Program-made: the position numbers and the translations under genes
Part shown: positions 20,352 through 58,508 of the stretch, piece after piece
Layout: every line of letters starts with the position of its first letter
Position numbering within the stretch: position 1 is the stretch's first letter
NCBI GenBank assembly: GCA_019248075.1
Contig: JAEHHG010000002.1
Location: 1-63,530 of the forward strand
DNA length: 63,530 nt
Direction: 5' to 3'
Source of the DNA: Candidatus Gracilibacteria bacterium S5_H10
GTDB lineage: Bacteria; Patescibacteriota; Gracilibacteria; Absconditabacterales; Absconditicoccaceae
Notes under the pieces: generated by a model
Databases searched by the model: none
The model's input: only the letters and a program-made list of their open reading frames with translations
What the model was told of the DNA's origin: nothing

Positions 20352-20780
20352 TCAAGTTTTTTTTTGCTTCTGTATACTGCTAATGATATAGGCTATTACA
20401 AATATACACAAACCAAGATAGATCAAAAATAACATAAGGCTTATCAACAAAACGCCAAAATTCATATCCCGTTCAATGTAATTTTTCTGATGTTCATAGT
20501 CGATTTTTATAAACTCATAATTGCTTTTTAAAAGTTTATCAGCATCGGTTTTGTTCTGTAAACGAGTAAGAGAATCTATCTGAAGATTCTTTACCTCGAT
20601 TAAGCTATCTAATTGCTTACATGCAATAATATCCTTTTCAAATCTCAATCGGATTCCGGGAATTTGCCTTATTATAAACATCTCTGAAGTATAAGAACAA
20701 AATATCCCTATAAATCCTACAAGCGATAGTATCGCTACGATAATCGCTACGATCATTTTGATTTTTTTCCATGTTTTCAT
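20352..20780 (-). CDS. Two-helix membrane protein, TGA used as stop
   Basis: A 142-residue protein with TM1 (IVAIIVAILSLVGFIGIFCSY), a central helical region (residues about 45-105, Leu/Asp/Lys coiled coil) and TM2 (FGVLLISLMLFLIYLGLCIFVIAYII). No internal TGA, and the frame closes with TGA at 20354-20352, just ahead of a terminator. Reading TGA as glycine would add 18 residues through the terminator hairpin, so this gene seems to have been written in the standard code. The promoter on the minus strand is TTGACA-N16-TATAAA (20831-20804). Family unknown; composition is Bacteroidota-like. Confidence 0.7.
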   Translation of the reverse strand: MKTWKKIKMIVAIIVAILSLVGFIGIFCSYTSEMFIIRQIPGIRLRFEKDIIACKQLDSLIEVKNLQIDSLTRLQNKTDADKLLKSNYEFIKIDYEHQKNYIERDMNFGVLLISLMLFLIYLGLCIFVIAYIISSIQKQKKT

Positions 20781-30734: not shown

Positions 30735-31045
30735 TTTATTGGATGCACAATATAAAATTTAGAATGAAAAGTATATAAGGAATAGCATCGAGATTTCAAG
30801 CGAGAACAATGACGAAGCGTGTTCATCCATAAAAAATATCAGTACATCTTTTTATCTTTATGTATATAATGCTTTTTATACCATCTAAGATAGTGATTTG
30901 AGCAATTACTCCTTATTATCTCTATTTATTGACATTTTATATAAAATATACTTGACTATTTATAGCAGATAATTATCATTACTAAGATGGTGATATTTAA
31001 CATATCATTTCGTTATTTAGAGTTTTTTAGAAAACTCTATTTTTT
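30735..31045. other. Gene-free spacer before the T9SS-type gene
   Basis: AT-rich, no ORF of note. Holds TTGACT-N16-TATCAT (30952-30979) and the AGAGTTTT-TTAG-AAAACTCT hairpin with T run (31019-31047). Nothing else was recognised. Confidence 0.5.
30952..30979 (+). promoter_or_regulatory. Promoter TTGACT-N16-TATCAT
   Basis: -35 TTGACT at 30952-30957, 16-bp spacer, -10 TATCAT at 30974-30979, the same architecture as at native genes. Confidence 0.5.
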
Positions 31046-31047
31046 TT
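31019..31047 (+). terminator. Terminator-like hairpin in the leader
   Basis: AGAGTTTT-TTAG-AAAACTCT followed by eight T lies between the promoter and the coding region, so it would work as an attenuator or ends a short leader RNA. Confidence 0.55.
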
Positions 31048-34000
31048 GAAAACAAAACAACATAATAAAAAAACAAAAATAAAAGGGGGGAAAAAAATAA
31101 AAACAAAAACACTTCTGTTTCTGCTAGCATTATTTGGCAGCTTCTGTGTGCAAGCACAGACAACCGTTACTATTGGTACGGGAACAACAGCTAACCGATA
31201 TGCATTCGGCATGTGGTTTGGCTATGAAAGATCTGCATCAATCTATACTGCTGCAGAAATCGGTTTGTCTAGTGGTAGTACTATTACTTCGTTAGGCTGG
31301 TATGTAAGCACAGCTTATACATCAAGCGCTACTGTCAGAATCTATGTAGCAAACACTACTGCTACAACTCTTACTGCTGGAACTTATGCAAACATTATCT
31401 CAGGAGCTACCTTGGTATATAATGGAACCCGAAGTTTTTCTAGCACAGGCTGGAATACTATCGCAACAACAGGTTTCACGTATACCGGCAACAATTTACT
31501 CGTAATAACTGAAACTACGTATGGAGGAACAGGCACTAGCTCGTATCCAACATTTCAGTACACTGCAGGAACAGCTTTCGAATATTGGTATCAGGACAAT
31601 TCTGCACCTACGGGCAGTGGAACTATCAATAATAGTTACCGTCCTAATATTCAGATAACTGCAATTACTCCTTGTACTAACAGTTCTCTCTATCCAAGCG
31701 CTTTTGCTGCTCCTACAACACCAACTTCTTACACTATTAGTTCCTGTCAATATCAATCCGAATACAATGAAATGACAGGAGTAGTAGCAGGAAATTCTTA
31801 CACTTCCACCGCAAGCATTGCCGGAACATATATTACTGTCCGGTATGGAAGCTACAATGGAAGCGTTGTAACAGCAGGCACTACGCCGCTTACTTGGACA
31901 GCAAGTGCAGGTGCTGGTACCTATTTCATTCATTACAACACCAACTCTTCATGCGGAACTGCTTCTTCATGTATGACAAGTACAATCACGTGCAACTCAT
32001 GCGAAATGATGGTTCCTGCAAGCGGAAGTAATTCGTACACCACATGTTCAGGACATCTCTATGACAATGGAGGATCTACAGTAGCATATGCTCTATCTAG
32101 TAATGGATATACGACTATCTATCCTGCTACTGCGGGTAATATGATCCAATTGACTGGTACCTATTATACAGAAACAAATTATGATTATGTGTACATTTAC
32201 AATGGTGTAGGAATTACTGGTACGTTGTTATATTCCGGATCTGCTTCTGCAAGCACTTCCATCGGAACTATAACATCTACTGATGCCACAGGAGCATTGA
32301 CGGTCAGATTTACTTCTGATGGAAGTATTCAAAATTCAGGATTTGATTTTACCATATCTTGTATCACACCATGTACGACTCCTGGCACTCCAACATCAAT
32401 TTCAGGAAGTGGTACTAGTGCAACGACAGCAAACCTATCCTGGGCTGCAGGTTCGCCCGCAGGAAGCGCTACCGTGACGTATTATTGGACCTTGTATAAT
32501 TCTGGAGGAACAGTAATTACTTCCGGAAATACTACAGGAACAACAGCTTCTGTAACAGGCTTGACTTGTAATACCTCATATTATTTCGCGGTATATGCAA
32601 GTACCAGTTGTAATGCCACAAGCTCTTCTGTAGCTACCAGTGGTTCATTCAGTACTTCTGCATGCGAGATGATTGTCCCTTCCTCAGGAACTACTACTTA
32701 CACGGTCTGCAGCGGTCACATCTATGATCATGCAGGATCTACTACTAACTATTCCAATAGCATCAGTGGATACGCAGTTATCTATCCTGGAGATCCTACC
32801 AAAGCTGTACAGCTTACTGGGACCTACGATGTGGAAACATGTTGTGATCATATCTATATCTACGATGGTGCGGGAACAGGCGGTTCCTTGCTTGGACAAT
32901 TCCAAGGAACTGGTGGAGTATCTATCGGAACAATCACTTCTTCGGGAGCGAACGTTCCTTTGACTATCCAATTCACTACTGACGCAAGTGTAATTTATTC
33001 AGGATTTGATTTTACCATATCCTGTGTTACTCCGCCTACTCCCTGTACAAATGCAAGCCTTCCTTACACGGAAGGGTTTAATTCAATAAACTTACCTTAT
33101 TGCTGGAGCCAGGTAATTGTATCGGGATCTTCATCTTTTCAATTCTTACCTTCAAGTTCTTCCCCAGCCACAACTCCTTGGGAAGGAAGCAATTATGTAT
33201 TTTGGAACTCATGGAGTATTTCCAGTGGATATGAAGCGAGATTGATTTCTCGTCCTATCACTACTATAGGAACTTCCAATGTAGAAGTACGTTTCTTTTG
33301 GATGAATGAAAACTCATCAACGTACAATTCTGGTTCCTACTTACTGGAAGGAGTTCAAGTTCAGTATTCACTGGATAAAATCACCTGGGTAAATGCAGGA
33401 TCTTTTATTCCAAGACAAGATGCTACGTTAACATCTGGAACTAGTCAGTGGAAAATTAAAGAAATTCCATTGCCTGCGGGTGCCGGCAATCAGTCAACCA
33501 TCTATGTAGGATTTTTATTTCACTCATCTTATGGAGATAACTGTTCTATGGATGGAGTATGGATCGGAGAATTATATACTGATCCCCTACCCGTTGAGTT
33601 GGTTTCCTTTACAGGACACTGTGATGGTAATCACGTTGAACTGAAGTGGGAAACTGCTTCAGAAATCAACAATGATTATTTCACGGTTGAAAAAAGTACT
33701 GATGCTATCAACTGGCAATTTGTGACTAAAGTTCCTGGCGCCGGCAACAGTAACCAATTATTACATTACGTTATGACTGATGAAGCAACGTTAGACGAAG
33801 TTGTCTACTATCGTCTGATACAGACAGACTATAATGGAGTAACGGAAACATTTCCTCCACTAACTGTCAGATGTCTATCAGAAAATGACGTGAAACTCTA
33901 TCCGAATCCTGTCACCGATATCTTGTATATCGAAGCGGGAAATACGGAAACAGAAATCAGATATATTCTTTATGATATCCACAATCAGCGTATCGCTGAA

Positions 34001-34105
34001 GGAACGGGACAAACCATTACTATGGCAAATTTTGCTCCGGGTGTATATTATATAGAAATATTGTTTGGTGGAAAAAATGTTTTCAAAAAAATTGTAAGAC
34101 AATAA
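31046..34105 (+). CDS. Bacteroidota-type secreted multidomain protein with T9SS sorting domain
   Basis: A 1019-residue frame with signal peptide (TKTLLFLLALFGSFCVQAQ, cut after AQA). A jelly-roll-like N-domain is followed by CUB domains (YDYVYIYNGVGITG, HIYIYDGAGTGGS), a fibronectin-III module (NLSWAAGSPAGSATVTYYW), a MAM/LamG-like domain (ACT/EGFNSINLPYCW) and a C-terminal T9SS type A domain (LYPNPVTDILYIEAGNT to FAPGVYYIEILFGG). About a hundred glycines, none TGA; stop TAA. T9SS occurs only in the Bacteroidota/FCB group. No in-frame ATG precedes the signal peptide: candidates are TTG 31046 (inside a terminator T run) or ATA 31097 after AAAGGGGGG. Confidence 0.85.
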   Translation: MKTKQHNKKTKIKGGKKIKTKTLLFLLALFGSFCVQAQTTVTIGTGTTANRYAFGMWFGYERSASIYTAAEIGLSSGSTITSLGWYVSTAYTSSATVRIYVANTTATTLTAGTYANIISGATLVYNGTRSFSSTGWNTIATTGFTYTGNNLLVITETTYGGTGTSSYPTFQYTAGTAFEYWYQDNSAPTGSGTINNSYRPNIQITAITPCTNSSLYPSAFAAPTTPTSYTISSCQYQSEYNEMTGVVAGNSYTSTASIAGTYITVRYGSYNGSVVTAGTTPLTWTASAGAGTYFIHYNTNSSCGTASSCMTSTITCNSCEMMVPASGSNSYTTCSGHLYDNGGSTVAYALSSNGYTTIYPATAGNMIQLTGTYYTETNYDYVYIYNGVGITGTLLYSGSASASTSIGTITSTDATGALTVRFTSDGSIQNSGFDFTISCITPCTTPGTPTSISGSGTSATTANLSWAAGSPAGSATVTYYWTLYNSGGTVITSGNTTGTTASVTGLTCNTSYYFAVYASTSCNATSSSVATSGSFSTSACEMIVPSSGTTTYTVCSGHIYDHAGSTTNYSNSISGYAVIYPGDPTKAVQLTGTYDVETCCDHIYIYDGAGTGGSLLGQFQGTGGVSIGTITSSGANVPLTIQFTTDASVIYSGFDFTISCVTPPTPCTNASLPYTEGFNSINLPYCWSQVIVSGSSSFQFLPSSSSPATTPWEGSNYVFWNSWSISSGYEARLISRPITTIGTSNVEVRFFWMNENSSTYNSGSYLLEGVQVQYSLDKITWVNAGSFIPRQDATLTSGTSQWKIKEIPLPAGAGNQSTIYVGFLFHSSYGDNCSMDGVWIGELYTDPLPVELVSFTGHCDGNHVELKWETASEINNDYFTVEKSTDAINWQFVTKVPGAGNSNQLLHYVMTDEATLDEVVYYRLIQTDYNGVTETFPPLTVRCLSENDVKLYPNPVTDILYIEAGNTETEIRYILYDIHNQRIAEGTGQTITMANFAPGVYYIEILFGGKNVFKKIVRQ

Positions 34106-34126
34106 ACGGCGCCGAAGGACGCCATA

Positions 34127-34156
34127 AAGCTCGGGATTTTTCTCGGGCTTTTTTTT
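34127..34156 (+). terminator. Rho-independent terminator
   Basis: AAGCTCGGG pairs with CTCGGGCTT (two G-T pairs), loop ATTTTT, then eight T; 22 bp after the TAA of the T9SS-type gene. Confidence 0.75.
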
Positions 34157-34216
34157 GTTTATGAAGTTTTTAATGAAAACAAAAAATCGAGCCAGTGAAG
34201 TATAGTATATGGTAAG

Positions 34217-34279
34217 ATGGATTCCGGCTGCAATTTCTTAACCCACGCAGTTCTGCGGGGCAGACTGCCGGAATGAGGT
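34217..34279. repeat. ATTCCGGC repeat carrying a palindrome insertion
   Basis: Shares GATTCCG, GCAATTTCTT and GCCGGAATGA with the repeat at 14833-14932, but between GCAATTTCTT and GCCGGAATGA it carries 27 bp containing CCACGCAGTTCTGCGGGG (34243-34260), a degenerate copy of the 18-bp palindrome found in the tRNA fragments. Confidence 0.65.
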
Positions 34280-53785: not shown

Positions 53786-53813
53786 TTGACAATTTATAAG
53801 AAATGTTTATAAC
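53786..53813 (+). promoter_or_regulatory. Promoter TTGACA-N16-TATAAC
   Basis: -35 at 53786-53791, 16-bp spacer, -10 TATAAC at 53808-53813, upstream of the sORF and the three-gene Bacteroidota-type group. Confidence 0.6.
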
Positions 53814-53916
53814 ATTCACAATGCGCTAGTCATAGCCGCAGAGATGTACCCAAGGAATCGTGAGATTTCCCAGGTGATCATTAACAAAAACACTAACCAA
53901 AATGAAAGGAGGAAAC

Positions 53917-54045
53917 ATGAAAAAACTTCTCAATTTTTTGGTTAATAGAAATGAAAACTTTTTTATCCAATATAATAAAACTCTTTTGATCAGCCATCGC
54001 AAAATCTATGCTGGCAATCATATGGTTCTGTTATCAGGATGATAA
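53917..54045 (+). CDS. Possible leader peptide with strong Shine-Dalgarno
   Basis: ATG 53917 follows AAAGGAGGAAAC, the clearest Shine-Dalgarno site in the window. The frame encodes MKKLLNFLVNRNENFFIQYN and ends in TGA-TAA (54040-54045), so it has 41 residues if TGA stops and 42 if TGA is glycine. Downstream, TAATCACGTGAAGGC and GCCTGGATCACGTTA can pair as an imperfect hairpin before the next ATG. It may be a translated leader controlling the TGA-free genes. Expression is unproven. Confidence 0.35.
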
Positions 54046-54143: not shown

Positions 54144-54914
54144 ATGAAACACTTTTTTGTTTTTGCTTTGCTGATCGGAATGACAGCAATGCAGATGGTA
54201 AACGGACAAACCGTAACCATAACCACAACACCGACAACTATTTGTGCTGGTGCAACAACAAACCTACAGGCTAATGCAAGTGGGGGAACATTCCCTACAT
54301 ATCTTTGGTCAACTGGAGCTGCAACCCAATCAATCAATCCAAGCCCAGCAGTTACCACTACATACACAGTAACGGTAACCTTCATGGGTGGAGCGACTGC
54401 TACTGCTAACAGTACAATAACGGTCATACCGACTCCGGCACAAGCAACTATCACTGCTGGTGGTCCTACTACTTTCTGTAACGGAGACTTTGTTCTTCTG
54501 ACTGCAAGTGCAGGAACTGCTTGGCAATGGTATCTCAATGGAAATCCTATTTCTGGAGCTACTGCTCAAAACTATTCTGCCTCTGCTACTGGTAGTTACC
54601 GAGTACTGACAACTGTCGGCAGCTGTACTGCTCCTATGAGCAATGCAACTACGGTAACCACAATACCTTTACCTGTCGCACATGTGACAAGTTCCGCAGA
54701 TAGCACATGTTTTGGTACGACTATAACCATGACTGCAGATCCTGTTACTGGAGCCACTTATCAATGGTGGTACAGTTATGATCTCAACGGTACGCCTGGC
54801 ACATGGAGCATCATCAATGGTGCTACTGGACAGACGTATGATGCTGACAATACAGGAAGTTATGGAGTAGTAGTAACTGTACTGACTTGTTCCGGAAAAA
54901 ATTTCGTTCAATAA
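54144..54914 (+). CDS. Secreted Ig/PKD-like protein, Bacteroidota-type, no sorting domain
   Basis: A 256-residue protein with signal peptide (HFFVFALLIGMTAMQMVNGQ) and two to three PKD/Ig-like modules with Cys pairs (TTICAGATTNLQANASGGTFPTYLWSTGA, TTFCNGDFVLLTASAGTAWQWYLNGNPISGATAQNYSASATGSYRV, STCFGTTITMTADPVTGATYQWW). Such modules typify Bacteroidota adhesins. About thirty glycines, none TGA; stop TAA. It ends abruptly (LTCSGKNFVQ) with no T9SS domain, 19 bp before the next gene, so it looks truncated or relies on its neighbour. Confidence 0.8.
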   Translation: MKHFFVFALLIGMTAMQMVNGQTVTITTTPTTICAGATTNLQANASGGTFPTYLWSTGAATQSINPSPAVTTTYTVTVTFMGGATATANSTITVIPTPAQATITAGGPTTFCNGDFVLLTASAGTAWQWYLNGNPISGATAQNYSASATGSYRVLTTVGSCTAPMSNATTVTTIPLPVAHVTSSADSTCFGTTITMTADPVTGATYQWWYSYDLNGTPGTWSIINGATGQTYDADNTGSYGVVVTVLTCSGKNFVQ

Positions 54915-54933
54915 ACAAAAAATCAGAAAAAAC

Positions 54934-56406
54934 ATGAAAAAGTTGATATTTTTCGTCATGATATTCACCGGAATGGTGAACATGATCAACGCACAAAGTG
55001 GTGTACCTGCATTTGTTGCAAACCCGCTTATTGAAGCAACAATTTCCGGAAACAACACTCCTCTTTGCTGGGGAGGTAATTCAGGAAACCTTATTGGTGA
55101 CACTGCAACTGGCGGTATCGGAAGTTATACGTATCAATGGCAACGGTCTTTGGACAACATTAGCTGGTCAAATATCGTAGGAGCTACAACTCTTACCTAT
55201 ACACCGGGAATAATGACCATTGGAGGAAATTTCTATTATCGTAGAATCGTCCACAACGATTGTGGATATGATACCAGCAATGTATTGTTTATCCAAGTAT
55301 ATAACCAGTTTGCTCTCGGTACAACAACCGGCGGAACTACACCGATTTGTTTTGGTCAGGATGCTGGAACACTTACCAGCCCTGCTGCAACTGGCGGTGC
55401 ACCTGGTATTACTTACCAGTGGCAATCATCGCTTGATGGTACCACCTGGTCAGATATTACTGGAGCAACAACAACTACCTATGCTATCGGTACACTGACA
55501 GACACTACTCATTTCCGCATTGTTGCAATGAACACTTGTGATACGCTTTACGGCAACGTGAAAACTATTATTGTTCATCCGCTCTTTGTGGAAGGTATCG
55601 CTACGCTTGTCGGCAGCACTAATATTTGTCCGGGAACAGATCCTGGAAACGTTACTGCTACTGCTGCAATTGGTGGTGCTGCTGGACTTACCGCATATCA
55701 GTGGCAACGTTCTATCGATAATGTAACTTGGTCAAATATCATCGGAGCTACTGCTCAATCTTATGATCCGGGAACACTATCTGTTGATACCTGGTACAGA
55801 AGAATGAGCACAAATACCTGTGATACAACGTATACCAATATTATTTTTATTGATGTCTATGATCCTCTGGATGGTGGTCTTATTACCTTAGTTGGTAATG
55901 ATACTATCTGTCATAGTATTGATCCTGGTTTCTTCTCCAGCACTGCAAGTACTGGTGGAGCTCCTGGTTCAAACTATCAGTGGCAACAATCAATTGATGG
56001 TAGTACCTGGTCAAATATCGTAGGAGCTACAACTCAGGATTATGATCCAGGAATTTTGGATACGACCACAGTATTTCGCAGACAGGTTACCAATACCTGC
56101 GGCATAGTGTATTCCAATGTCATTATCATTAAAGTATGGGAAGAGCTTAACTTTGGAGTCCTTGGACATGTACAATATATCTGTCCGGGAACAGCACCCG
56201 CTGCCTATAGTTTTATTACCCTGCCGACTGGTGGTGATGGAAATTACACCTATCAGTGGATATCATCAACAACTAACCTTGTAGGTTCTTGGACTGACAT
56301 CCCTGGTGCAACTGGTACATCGTACCAACCTGGTATCCTGACTACTACAACATACTTTAGTGTCAGGGTAACAAATGTATGTGGATTTGGTTATCCGACT
56401 TATTAA
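54934..56406 (+). CDS. Secreted repeat protein, Bacteroidota-type
   Basis: A 490-residue protein with signal peptide (KLIFFVMIFTGMVNMINAQ) and five tandem units of about 80-90 residues. Each has xICxGxDPGxxTxxxATGGAPG, YQWQxSxDxxTWSxIxGAT, a YDPGxLxxTTxFRRxxxxxC strand and a following Val-rich strand. The pattern is a Bacteroidota Ig-like adhesion repeat. Glycine-rich but no TGA. It ends at GFGYPTY without a sorting domain, 14 bp before the next gene. The three adjacent genes share signal-peptide and repeat style, so they were probably acquired together. Confidence 0.82.
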   Translation: MKKLIFFVMIFTGMVNMINAQSGVPAFVANPLIEATISGNNTPLCWGGNSGNLIGDTATGGIGSYTYQWQRSLDNISWSNIVGATTLTYTPGIMTIGGNFYYRRIVHNDCGYDTSNVLFIQVYNQFALGTTTGGTTPICFGQDAGTLTSPAATGGAPGITYQWQSSLDGTTWSDITGATTTTYAIGTLTDTTHFRIVAMNTCDTLYGNVKTIIVHPLFVEGIATLVGSTNICPGTDPGNVTATAAIGGAAGLTAYQWQRSIDNVTWSNIIGATAQSYDPGTLSVDTWYRRMSTNTCDTTYTNIIFIDVYDPLDGGLITLVGNDTICHSIDPGFFSSTASTGGAPGSNYQWQQSIDGSTWSNIVGATTQDYDPGILDTTTVFRRQVTNTCGIVYSNVIIIKVWEELNFGVLGHVQYICPGTAPAAYSFITLPTGGDGNYTYQWISSTTNLVGSWTDIPGATGTSYQPGILTTTTYFSVRVTNVCGFGYPTY

Positions 56407-56420
56407 AAAAACAAAAAACA

Positions 56421-58508
56421 ATGAAAAAATACTTTCAAATCCTTTTTGCAGTACTACTTATTTGTATTACTGTAATAGGTCAGGCGCAATCAGGTGTGCC
56501 TGCAGTGATTTTGCCGTCACCGACACAATACTCTACTTCTGGTGGAGGTACTCATTGTGCGGGGACAGTAACACCGCATATATGGATCATGCAAACTGAT
56601 CCTGCATCAACAGGAACTTTGTATTTTCTTTGGAGAGAACAGCTTCCCAACGATGTCTTAGTCGCAACGATTTCCGGCAACGGAGGAAGTTATGACTTTG
56701 GCAGTCAACCGGATGGAAGTTATTATGTTACTGCTATGCTTCCGACAGGATGCACTGCTACTATGATTGGCTCAGTAACCGTAACCCCGTTACCGATTCC
56801 GACAGTAAGTATCAGCCATACTGGTTCATTAACTGGATGCGGTAGTGTCACGACAACATTATCCACTCCTTATGAAGTGAATACTTCATACCAGTGGTAT
56901 AAAGATTCTGTCGCCATTTTGGGAGCAACATCAAACACCTACACAGCAACCGTTACTAACGGTACTGAAGTTTTTGTCTGTGTTGCAACCAATACTTCTG
57001 GATGTACAAATAATGACTTTGTTGTTGTTACTGCACATCTGCTTCCGGCAACATTTGTTGTTTCCAGTCCTAATCCTAACAATCACTTCTGTGAACAGAC
57101 AAGTGGAGTGATTGACCTTTCAGGATCTATGAGTGGAACTACTTATACTATTACCGGATCAAGTGTTCCCGTAGCCGGTACCGGTTCCGCTCTTCAGTGG
57201 AATACTGGTATCACGACAACAGGATCTTACACCGTAACCGCTACTACAAGTTATGGCTGCACAGCAACCATGGGTAGTGTATATATGGTTATGGATCCGA
57301 GACCGGTTACAGCAAATATTATTACTGGTCCGACAACTGTTTGTGCTAATTCGGTGGTACCTTATACAACTGCAAACATCTTGTATGCTGACAGCTGTAT
57401 CTGGTCTGTACCGAATGGCGCCACCATTTTATCAGGACAAGGAACTACAAACATTACCGTTCAGATGGGTACGGTTGGCGGAGCTGTTGGAGTATATGGT
57501 AAAAACGATTGCGGTAATGGTCAACCGACTACTATCAACGTAACCATTAATCAGGCTCCAACTTTAAATGCAACTGCTAACCCTGCTACACTTTGTGCGG
57601 GTAACAGCACCACACTTACCGCTAGCGGAAGTGCTGCAACCTACAACTGGTCTTCTGGTTTAGGAACTGCTTCGACAGTGAATATCATCCCGAATGCTAC
57701 AACCACGTATATTGTTACTGCCACTGGCAGCAACGGTTGTGTCAGTACTGATGATGTTACTGTTACGGTACATCCTTTGCCGAATGTTACGCTGAATTTG
57801 TCTCCAACATCTATTTGTCAGGAAACATATAGTGTAACCTTAAGTGGAGGTTCACCGGCAGGAGGAACCTATTATGGTGGCTGTATCTACGGTGCAAACA
57901 CTGTATTTGGCAGTACGGTAGTAGGAACCTATCCTATTGAATACCGTTACACTGACACGTATGGATGCGAAGGCGTATCTCCGACCGTGTTGTTTGTAGT
58001 CAATCCTACACCGACAGCTGTGCTGAATCCATTCTACCCGGCAAGCATTATTCCGTTTGATGAACCTCCATTTATTGTAACCCAATATGGGGTTCCCAAT
58101 GGTGGCGTCTTCAACGGCCCTGGTTTTTACCAAGTTGGCAATGTCTGGTGGTTTGACGCAAGTCAAGCTGGTCAAGGGTATCATTCTGCAACCTATGAAT
58201 ACACTCAAGGCAGCACAGGCTGCGTAGGAGCTGGGTTGGGAGAATATACCGTCGGTTCTCCGACAGGTATTGCTGACAATGATGCATCTGGAATTCTCAT
58301 TTATCCTAATCCCACCAATGATGTCGTGAACATCAATCTGGGAGATATCAATGGAGCTGATATTCAACTCTGTGATGTAACAGGAAAGATGATTTATTCC
58401 GGTACAGAAACCAGCATTGACCTGACCGACATGCCGGCAGGTGTCTATACTTTGAAAGTAATAACCAGTGATGGAACCATGTTCCATTCCAAGGTTGTGA
58501 AAAACTAG
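56421..58508 (+). CDS. Bacteroidota-type PKD-repeat protein with T9SS sorting domain
   Basis: A 695-residue protein starting ATG 56421 (signal peptide KKYFQILFAVLLICITVIGQAQ; the frame is open further upstream but that overlaps the previous gene). Ig/PKD-like modules each hold a Cys pair (TVSISHTGSLTGCGSVTTTLS, PTLNATANPATLCAGNSTTLTASGSAATYNWSSG). After GVPNGGVFNGPGF the C-terminus is a T9SS type A domain: IADNDASGILIYPNPTNDVVNI, IQLCDVTGKMIYSG, DMPAGVYTLKVITSDGTMFHSKVVKN. No TGA glycines in a very Gly-rich protein; stop TAG. No T9SS machinery gene is in the window. Confidence 0.88.
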   Translation: MKKYFQILFAVLLICITVIGQAQSGVPAVILPSPTQYSTSGGGTHCAGTVTPHIWIMQTDPASTGTLYFLWREQLPNDVLVATISGNGGSYDFGSQPDGSYYVTAMLPTGCTATMIGSVTVTPLPIPTVSISHTGSLTGCGSVTTTLSTPYEVNTSYQWYKDSVAILGATSNTYTATVTNGTEVFVCVATNTSGCTNNDFVVVTAHLLPATFVVSSPNPNNHFCEQTSGVIDLSGSMSGTTYTITGSSVPVAGTGSALQWNTGITTTGSYTVTATTSYGCTATMGSVYMVMDPRPVTANIITGPTTVCANSVVPYTTANILYADSCIWSVPNGATILSGQGTTNITVQMGTVGGAVGVYGKNDCGNGQPTTINVTINQAPTLNATANPATLCAGNSTTLTASGSAATYNWSSGLGTASTVNIIPNATTTYIVTATGSNGCVSTDDVTVTVHPLPNVTLNLSPTSICQETYSVTLSGGSPAGGTYYGGCIYGANTVFGSTVVGTYPIEYRYTDTYGCEGVSPTVLFVVNPTPTAVLNPFYPASIIPFDEPPFIVTQYGVPNGGVFNGPGFYQVGNVWWFDASQAGQGYHSATYEYTQGSTGCVGAGLGEYTVGSPTGIADNDASGILIYPNPTNDVVNINLGDINGADIQLCDVTGKMIYSGTETSIDLTDMPAGVYTLKVITSDGTMFHSKVVKN

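Follow-up and report, generated by a model that had tools for sequence, protein, structure and literature searches.

TGA-free genes with Bacteroidota-type translation and export signals in a bacterium that reads TGA as glycine: candidates for expression in a host cell

The window, i.e. the whole 63,530-nucleotide stretch of DNA analysed here, contains at 31046..34105 (+) an open reading frame of 1019 codons that ends in TAA and holds no in-frame TGA. Its glycines are encoded by GGN only (0 TGA/100 GGN), as the original prediction had stated, while in the window's remaining ORFs this residue has 362 TGA and 801 GGN codons (31% TGA); a gene of this kind would be TGA-free by chance with a probability of ~0.69^100, i.e. 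1e-16. The native secreted repeat proteins next door have 26–36% TGA, in line with the earlier remark that neighbouring surface proteins use this codon freely. By profile search, the protein of gene 31046 was found to carry CUB domains (PF00431, 29.9; cut-off 21.4) and a C-terminal sorting domain of the type IX secretion system (T9SS), matched by both Por_Secre_tail PF18962 (31 bits, cut-off 27) and TIGR04183 (26.5, cut-off 23). The fn3 profile scored 22.4, under its cut-off of 25, and the same search gave no MAM domain. With a C-terminal sorting domain above the curated cut-off, gene 31046 resembles T9SS type A cargo, as does the third gene of a second island (see below).

The start of gene 31046 is uncertain. 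Initiation at the TTG at 31046 would translate an A-rich leader, namely the 17 codons before 31097, and a normal signal peptide, KTKTLLFLLALFGSFCVQA followed by Q, starts from 31097. The assembly shows ATA there in place of the expected ATG, and 31097 is perhaps the true start. Predicted cleavage occurs after VQA, directly before Gln. Upstream of the gene, we read from the sequence a promoter-like TTGACT-16-TATCAT (30952..30979, +), a type that is enriched class-wide, and a leader motif, TGATATTTAACA (30991..31002, +), with the consensus TGATCATTAACA that is common to the TGA-free genes of the family. A hairpin with a T-run (31018..31046, +; arms 31018–31026 and 31031–31039) lies just 5' of the A-rich leader and resembles an attenuator or a terminator, and a second hairpin with a T-run, read from the sequence as intrinsic-terminator-like, follows the gene at 34126..34157 (+). 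A palindrome, ATTCCGGC...GCCGGAAT, is present at 34221–34274; similar palindromes of the GGAATGAC type occur before the second island and in L070, and are probably dispersed repeats.

Among relatives, gene 31046 is present only in this genome. On both sides of this first island, gene order agrees with that of relatives, where the two flanking genes are direct neighbours. The closest database relative lies on a Bacteroidales contig, with 72% identity over only 136 residues, and a donor search, viral contigs included, revealed no close donor, the viral contigs giving nothing. The genome is a draft MAG, 74% complete in 258 contigs. GC content is raised in both islands, mostly owing to amino-acid content, and GC3 is native-like.

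The second TGA-free island (54144–58508, +) comprises three genes with 0/164 glycines encoded by TGA and lies directly before rpsL and rpsG. Gene 1 (54144..54914; 0/25) has a signal peptide that follows the Q-rule (Gln at +1 after the predicted cleavage site) and an Ig_7 domain; gene 2 (54934..56406; 0/59) encodes a repeat protein with orthologues of 45–71% identity in three species; gene 3 (56379..58508, likely start 56421; 0/80) combines PKD_6 with a T9SS sorting domain scoring 47.9 and 45.4 (cut-offs 27 and 23). An ordinary code-25 gene would use TGA for glycine at the genomic rate, which neither island does (0/100 and 0/164). The promoter of island 2, TTGACA-16-TATAAC (53786..53813, +), is conserved and aligned in four species. 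It is followed by a two-hairpin 5' leader element (53822..53886, +) that ends in the motif TGATCATTAACA (53875–53886) and folds in four species of differing sequence, with z-scores of -2.4 to -3.9; an Rfam search of the window returned two tRNAs only and no family for this leader. A mini-ORF of ~41 codons (MKKLLNFLV...HRKIYAG...; 53917..54045, +), read by eye from the alignment, is preceded by the purine-rich AAAGGAGG and ends in TGA TAA. Similar frames with HRKIYA-like ends exist in G002, G006 and G008, and the mini-ORF is a possible leader peptide.

The native genes of this bacterium have TGA at conserved glycines, a code that points to a code-25 lineage such as Absconditabacteria/Gracilibacteria. 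Release factor RF2 exceeded the curated cut-off in 0/16 genomes of this family, compared with 10/10 genomes of the other families of the class; in nearly all 16 family genomes the release-factor match was RF1-like only, and the genes concerned themselves hold 4–17 TGA codons. Stretches of G022 and G049 contain tRNAs with a UCA anticodon. Some genes nevertheless end in TGA. One T9SS gene (G008:C8) ends in AAA TGA with a terminator stem beginning a few bases on, another (G014:C15) ends in CTT TGA followed by a terminator, and the terminal TGA of a PorP gene in G002 shares bases with the ATG start of the following gene (ATGA). In the window, a small membrane protein gene (20354..20780, -) with an A-rich leader (A 0.80) has a TGA stop with a terminator directly after it; no homologue of this gene was found in 40 relatives. 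In three of these four genes, TGA thus stands directly before a terminator. Without RF2, such frames would extend by ~18 to 58 codons. The TGA-stop genes could be young imports. The stops of the TGA-free gene set are nearly all TAA (38 TAA, 1 TAG), while TAG ends 23% of native genes.

To what extent this class is shared was seen from a search of relatives with PF18962, which found sorting domains in 36/99 genomes, mostly of this family. All matches of at least 35 bits lie in TGA-free frames, and six weaker matches hold TGA. Phylum-wide, only 4/287 genomes exceeded the sorting-domain cut-off, indicating that the family is enriched in these domains. TGA-free T9SS genes are also present in the single-contig genome G049. 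Over 16 family genomes, the TGA-free set amounts to 2362 glycines, in genomes with native TGA fractions of 0.23–0.81; since the set was picked for being TGA-free, the lack of TGA in it carries no independent weight. Figures free of this bias come from the search of relatives and from a sample of G008, in which 3/139 ORFs with at least 25 glycines were TGA-free (two genes of the island 2 cassette and one PIN/PhoH-like gene) and a further T9SS gene uses TGA solely as stop. Apart from TGA, codon usage of the TGA-free genes is native-like and their GC3 tracks that of their own genome (r = 0.76), so that the codon statistics suggested by the original prediction reveal no foreign usage. An arginine codon test for a second reassignment was uninformative, CGA, CGG and AGG being used in both classes. 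It should be noted that automatic ORF rules chose the gene sets, with predicted starts, that genomes were sampled as stretches, and that the main statistics exclude L061 and L067, two phage-like contigs of the G007 bin, of which L061 is within the early counts.

These two contigs (G007:C55 and G007:C44) have nearly no TGA and carry tRNA genes, repeated GIY-YIG-like genes and a chaperonin gene; L061 also encodes a 516-aa protein with a T9SS-like tail. A UPF0182 family gene of 1009 aa (L069:3680–6709) has 0 TGA/57 glycines in a genome with a TGA fraction of 0.66, and adjoins a T9SS gene. In G008, a TGA-free gene with an A-rich leader (L116:18681–19529, -) encodes a 282-aa secreted protein that has the look of an outer-membrane barrel (ending YLWLHF); a family search gave no significant match for it. 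TGA avoidance occurs in some conserved native genes too: the PIN/PhoH-like gene (L115:11348–12742, -) has 0 TGA/31 glycines, and rpsG 0/9.

The signals for translation and export in the TGA-free genes are of Bacteroidota type. The 30 bases before the start contain 63% A, against 36% in native genes (P 1e-22), with A peaks at -3, -6 and -11 to -14. These are the positions at which A promotes initiation in Flavobacterium johnsoniae (PMC6847099); A-rich leaders aid initiation in other bacteria as well (PMC6847099). Shine-Dalgarno sequences are scarce in TGA-free and native genes alike. Moreover, Gln occupies +1 after the predicted signal peptidase site in 27/38 TGA-free proteins and 40/229 native secreted proteins (P 9e-11), and in 12/12 cases in the cassette; this Q-rule has been described as a Bacteroidetes-specific feature within the larger group to which the phylum belongs (PMC5837995). 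An operon of G002 (G002:C22) encodes an SprB-repeat adhesin with a CHU_C domain, PorP/SprF and a PD40 protein without any sense TGA, and its neighbours use TGA. PorP was matched only in G002, within this TGA-free cargo operon. As for the secretion machinery, which the original prediction had proposed to search for, SprA_N and PorP profiles had no match in this genome, and SprA_N none in 31 genomes, the SprA control being equally silent, so that the SprA_N result is no sign of absence. Overall, the T9SS tails, Q-rule, A-rich leaders and PorP/SprF give good support to the predicted link with Bacteroidota, possibly as the host.

Transcription signals are those of the recoded cell. Sigma-70-like promoters were found 5' of 67% of TGA-free genes, compared with 21% in shuffles; Bacteroidota promoters, also considered for these genes, showed no enrichment upstream. 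Among genes with free upstream regions, the box TTGACTTTT precedes 32% of the TGA-free ones, against 1.7% of the native ones. The motif TGATCATTAACA, allowing at most 2 mismatches, was present in 11/25 TGA-free and 7/351 native genes (P 2e-10), a value for which the motif was discovered and tested on one same set and orthologues were counted, so that there are fewer independent cases. Promoter box and leader motif are nearly missing from the few Bacteroidota genes compared; only 55 such genes served as the control for leaders and promoters.

Island 2 is collinear and orthologous in the window species and three others of the genus, flanked by the same native genes in all four genomes (G000, G002, G006 and G008). 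Its proteins share 38–71% amino-acid identity between species, compared with 24–94% for native ones. At the conserved glycines of island 2 (115–158 per species pair), no copy has TGA, and the GGN codon has switched at 55–68% of them. Identity at the fourfold sites of island 2, which are saturated, is 0.27–0.44, not above the 0.41–0.43 of native genes. Among native orthologues, TGA and GGN interchange freely, and roughly every second conserved glycine column has a TGA from one or more of the species. Since synteny is kept and synonymous sites are saturated without any TGA, recent import is not supported for the gene class; the recent acquisition originally predicted for gene 31046 does not account for the class, which also shares family-specific promoter and leader motifs, although gene 31046 itself may be a recent arrival. 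The cassette thus dates back roughly to the divergence of these species, or has passed between them, and TGA has been kept out of it. The G000 copies (38–53%) are more distant than native genes predict, and replacement of the copy in the G000 line is possible. A neutral lag after import is ruled out for island 2 by the saturated synonymous sites. High expression was also considered as the cause of TGA avoidance and rejected: rpsL still holds 1–3 TGA, and the TGA stops are left unexplained by it.

Given a Bacteroidota-like frame, start context, signal peptide and sorting domain, and a native promoter, leader motif, composition and locus, the simplest account is a message made here and read there. 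We therefore favour, as somewhat better than an even bet, that the TGA-free genes are transcribed in the recoded cell and translated in a standard-code Bacteroidota host. The recoded bacterium, presumed to live attached to other bacteria as an epibiont, reads TGA as Gly and lacks RF2; it would keep a set of genes that have a leader motif in common and transcribe them from TTGACTTTT/TATAAT-type promoters. The message, either RNA or DNA, would pass into the attached Bacteroidota host, whose ribosomes would translate it with TGA as stop. Host Sec and signal peptidase I would process the product according to the Q-rule, and the host T9SS would place the protein on the host surface or release it. 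In that place, the protein could be of use to the epibiont, for instance by forming a layer for attachment or recognition. The code signature, with its age in island 2 and its upkeep, the TGA stops, the lack of RF2 and the signatures of expression and export are observations, whereas the host, the passage of nucleic acid and the function are inferred. A correlation between Absconditabacteria and Bacteroidetes has been described in mats (PMC8406219), and our literature search returned no paper linking Absconditabacteria with type IX secretion. The fuller version, in which mRNA (or DNA) for surface proteins is exported with the structured 5' leader as transfer or recognition signal, one chromosome serves two codes and the host displays parasite-encoded proteins, is put forward tentatively, as a little less probable than its opposite. 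What speaks against host translation is that the promoters resemble ordinary sigma-70 ones rather than those of Bacteroidota; the version with DNA transfer needs another promoter. TraG/VirD4-like ATPases are found in all 26 genomes searched, standard-code families included, and are hence unspecific. There are 2–4 per genome, partly clustered (e.g., G000:C223 and G000:C241), as a conserved transfer system.

The best of the alternatives, which we nonetheless regard as improbable, is continual import: T9SS-type genes would be repeatedly acquired from Bacteroidota and lost, all copies being young and under no need to function. Family-wide turnover fits this, many genes being confined to a single species (such as gene 31046 and the gene at 20354–20780), and the TGA-stop genes look fresh. 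Gene 31046 has no orthologue in sister species, as expected of a recent import, which is untrue of island 2: its three genes recur at one and the same locus in four species, with synonymous sites saturated. Neither a close donor nor foreign codon usage was found: the nearest relative of gene 31046 reaches 72% over 136 aa, a search of 395 Bacteroidota genomes with island 2 gene 2 revealed no full-length relative, only partial repeats of up to ~42% over long stretches, and codons are native apart from TGA. The promoter box and leader motif shared by these genes, nearly missing from the few Bacteroidota genes compared, also argue against it.

Slightly less probable still is translation in the cell itself with TGA avoidance enforced, for example by a state without tRNA-Gly(UCA), the sorting domains serving some other purpose. 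Native-looking promoters and terminators agree with this, as do conserved native genes that avoid TGA (PIN/PhoH-like, 0/31; rpsG, 0/9). However, the adjoining native secreted repeat proteins have 26–36% TGA and rpsL carries 1–3, TGA stops occur despite the absence of RF2, and the Q-rule and PorP/SprF have no obvious role in a cell that presumably has no outer membrane.

Mobile DNA that shuttles between Bacteroidota and recoded cells and keeps its frames readable in both codes is a further explanation, which we hold to be quite unlikely. Phages without in-frame TGA have been published (PMC10746230), and the TGA-free phage-like contigs of the G007 bin include a gene with a T9SS tail (L061). However, each island consists of one gene or a short operon, next to which no integrase, relaxase or phage genes were recognised, island 2 is a fixed chromosomal locus, and a frame that ends in TGA is unsafe in a dual code unless a second stop lies close by. 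Finally, a wrong joining of Bacteroidota DNA into the contig, a worry suggested by the draft state of the MAG with its 258 contigs and by the raised GC of the islands, is scarcely credible, since island 2 recurs in four genomes, which rules out a chimera there, the flanks of island 1 are collinear with relatives, the single-contig G049 also has TGA-free T9SS genes, and GC3 is native-like with the GC rise mostly due to amino-acid content.

Expression in the host, if confirmed, would be a stable cross-phylum bacterial gene expression made visible by the code change. For most recoded Patescibacteria the hosts are unknown; TGA-free genes with Bacteroidota signals would name the host phylum for the whole family and offer a sequence test for it. 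More generally, looking for genes that refuse the new code would be a route to host-directed genes in any recoded symbiont.

Several known systems invite comparison. Like the type A cargo of the Bacteroidota T9SS (PF18962/TIGR04183), the TGA-free proteins have a Sec signal peptide with Gln at +1, repeat, Ig, PKD or CUB domains and a sorting domain over the cut-offs; unlike that cargo, they are encoded in TGA-free frames on the chromosome of a bacterium that reads TGA as Gly and in which no T9SS was detected (the SprA control profile being silent). The G002:C22 operon resembles Flavobacterium SprB-SprF in joining an adhesin (SprB repeats, CHU_C) with PorP/SprF, here together with PD40, but lies in a recoded genome, and the TGA stop of its PorP gene overlaps the next start. 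In Agrobacterium T-DNA, genes of the resident carry the expression signals of the recipient. Here, Bacteroidota translation and export signals are present and Bacteroidota promoters are not enriched; the recipient would be a bacterium, the promoters look donor-native, and the transfer is what we infer from this combination. The code-11-compatible phages of Gracilibacteria/Absconditabacteria (PMC10746230) likewise have no in-frame TGA though the cell reads TGA as Gly. Those are phage genomes with backup stops, whereas the present genes are chromosomal and encode secreted proteins, some with TGA as the effective stop.
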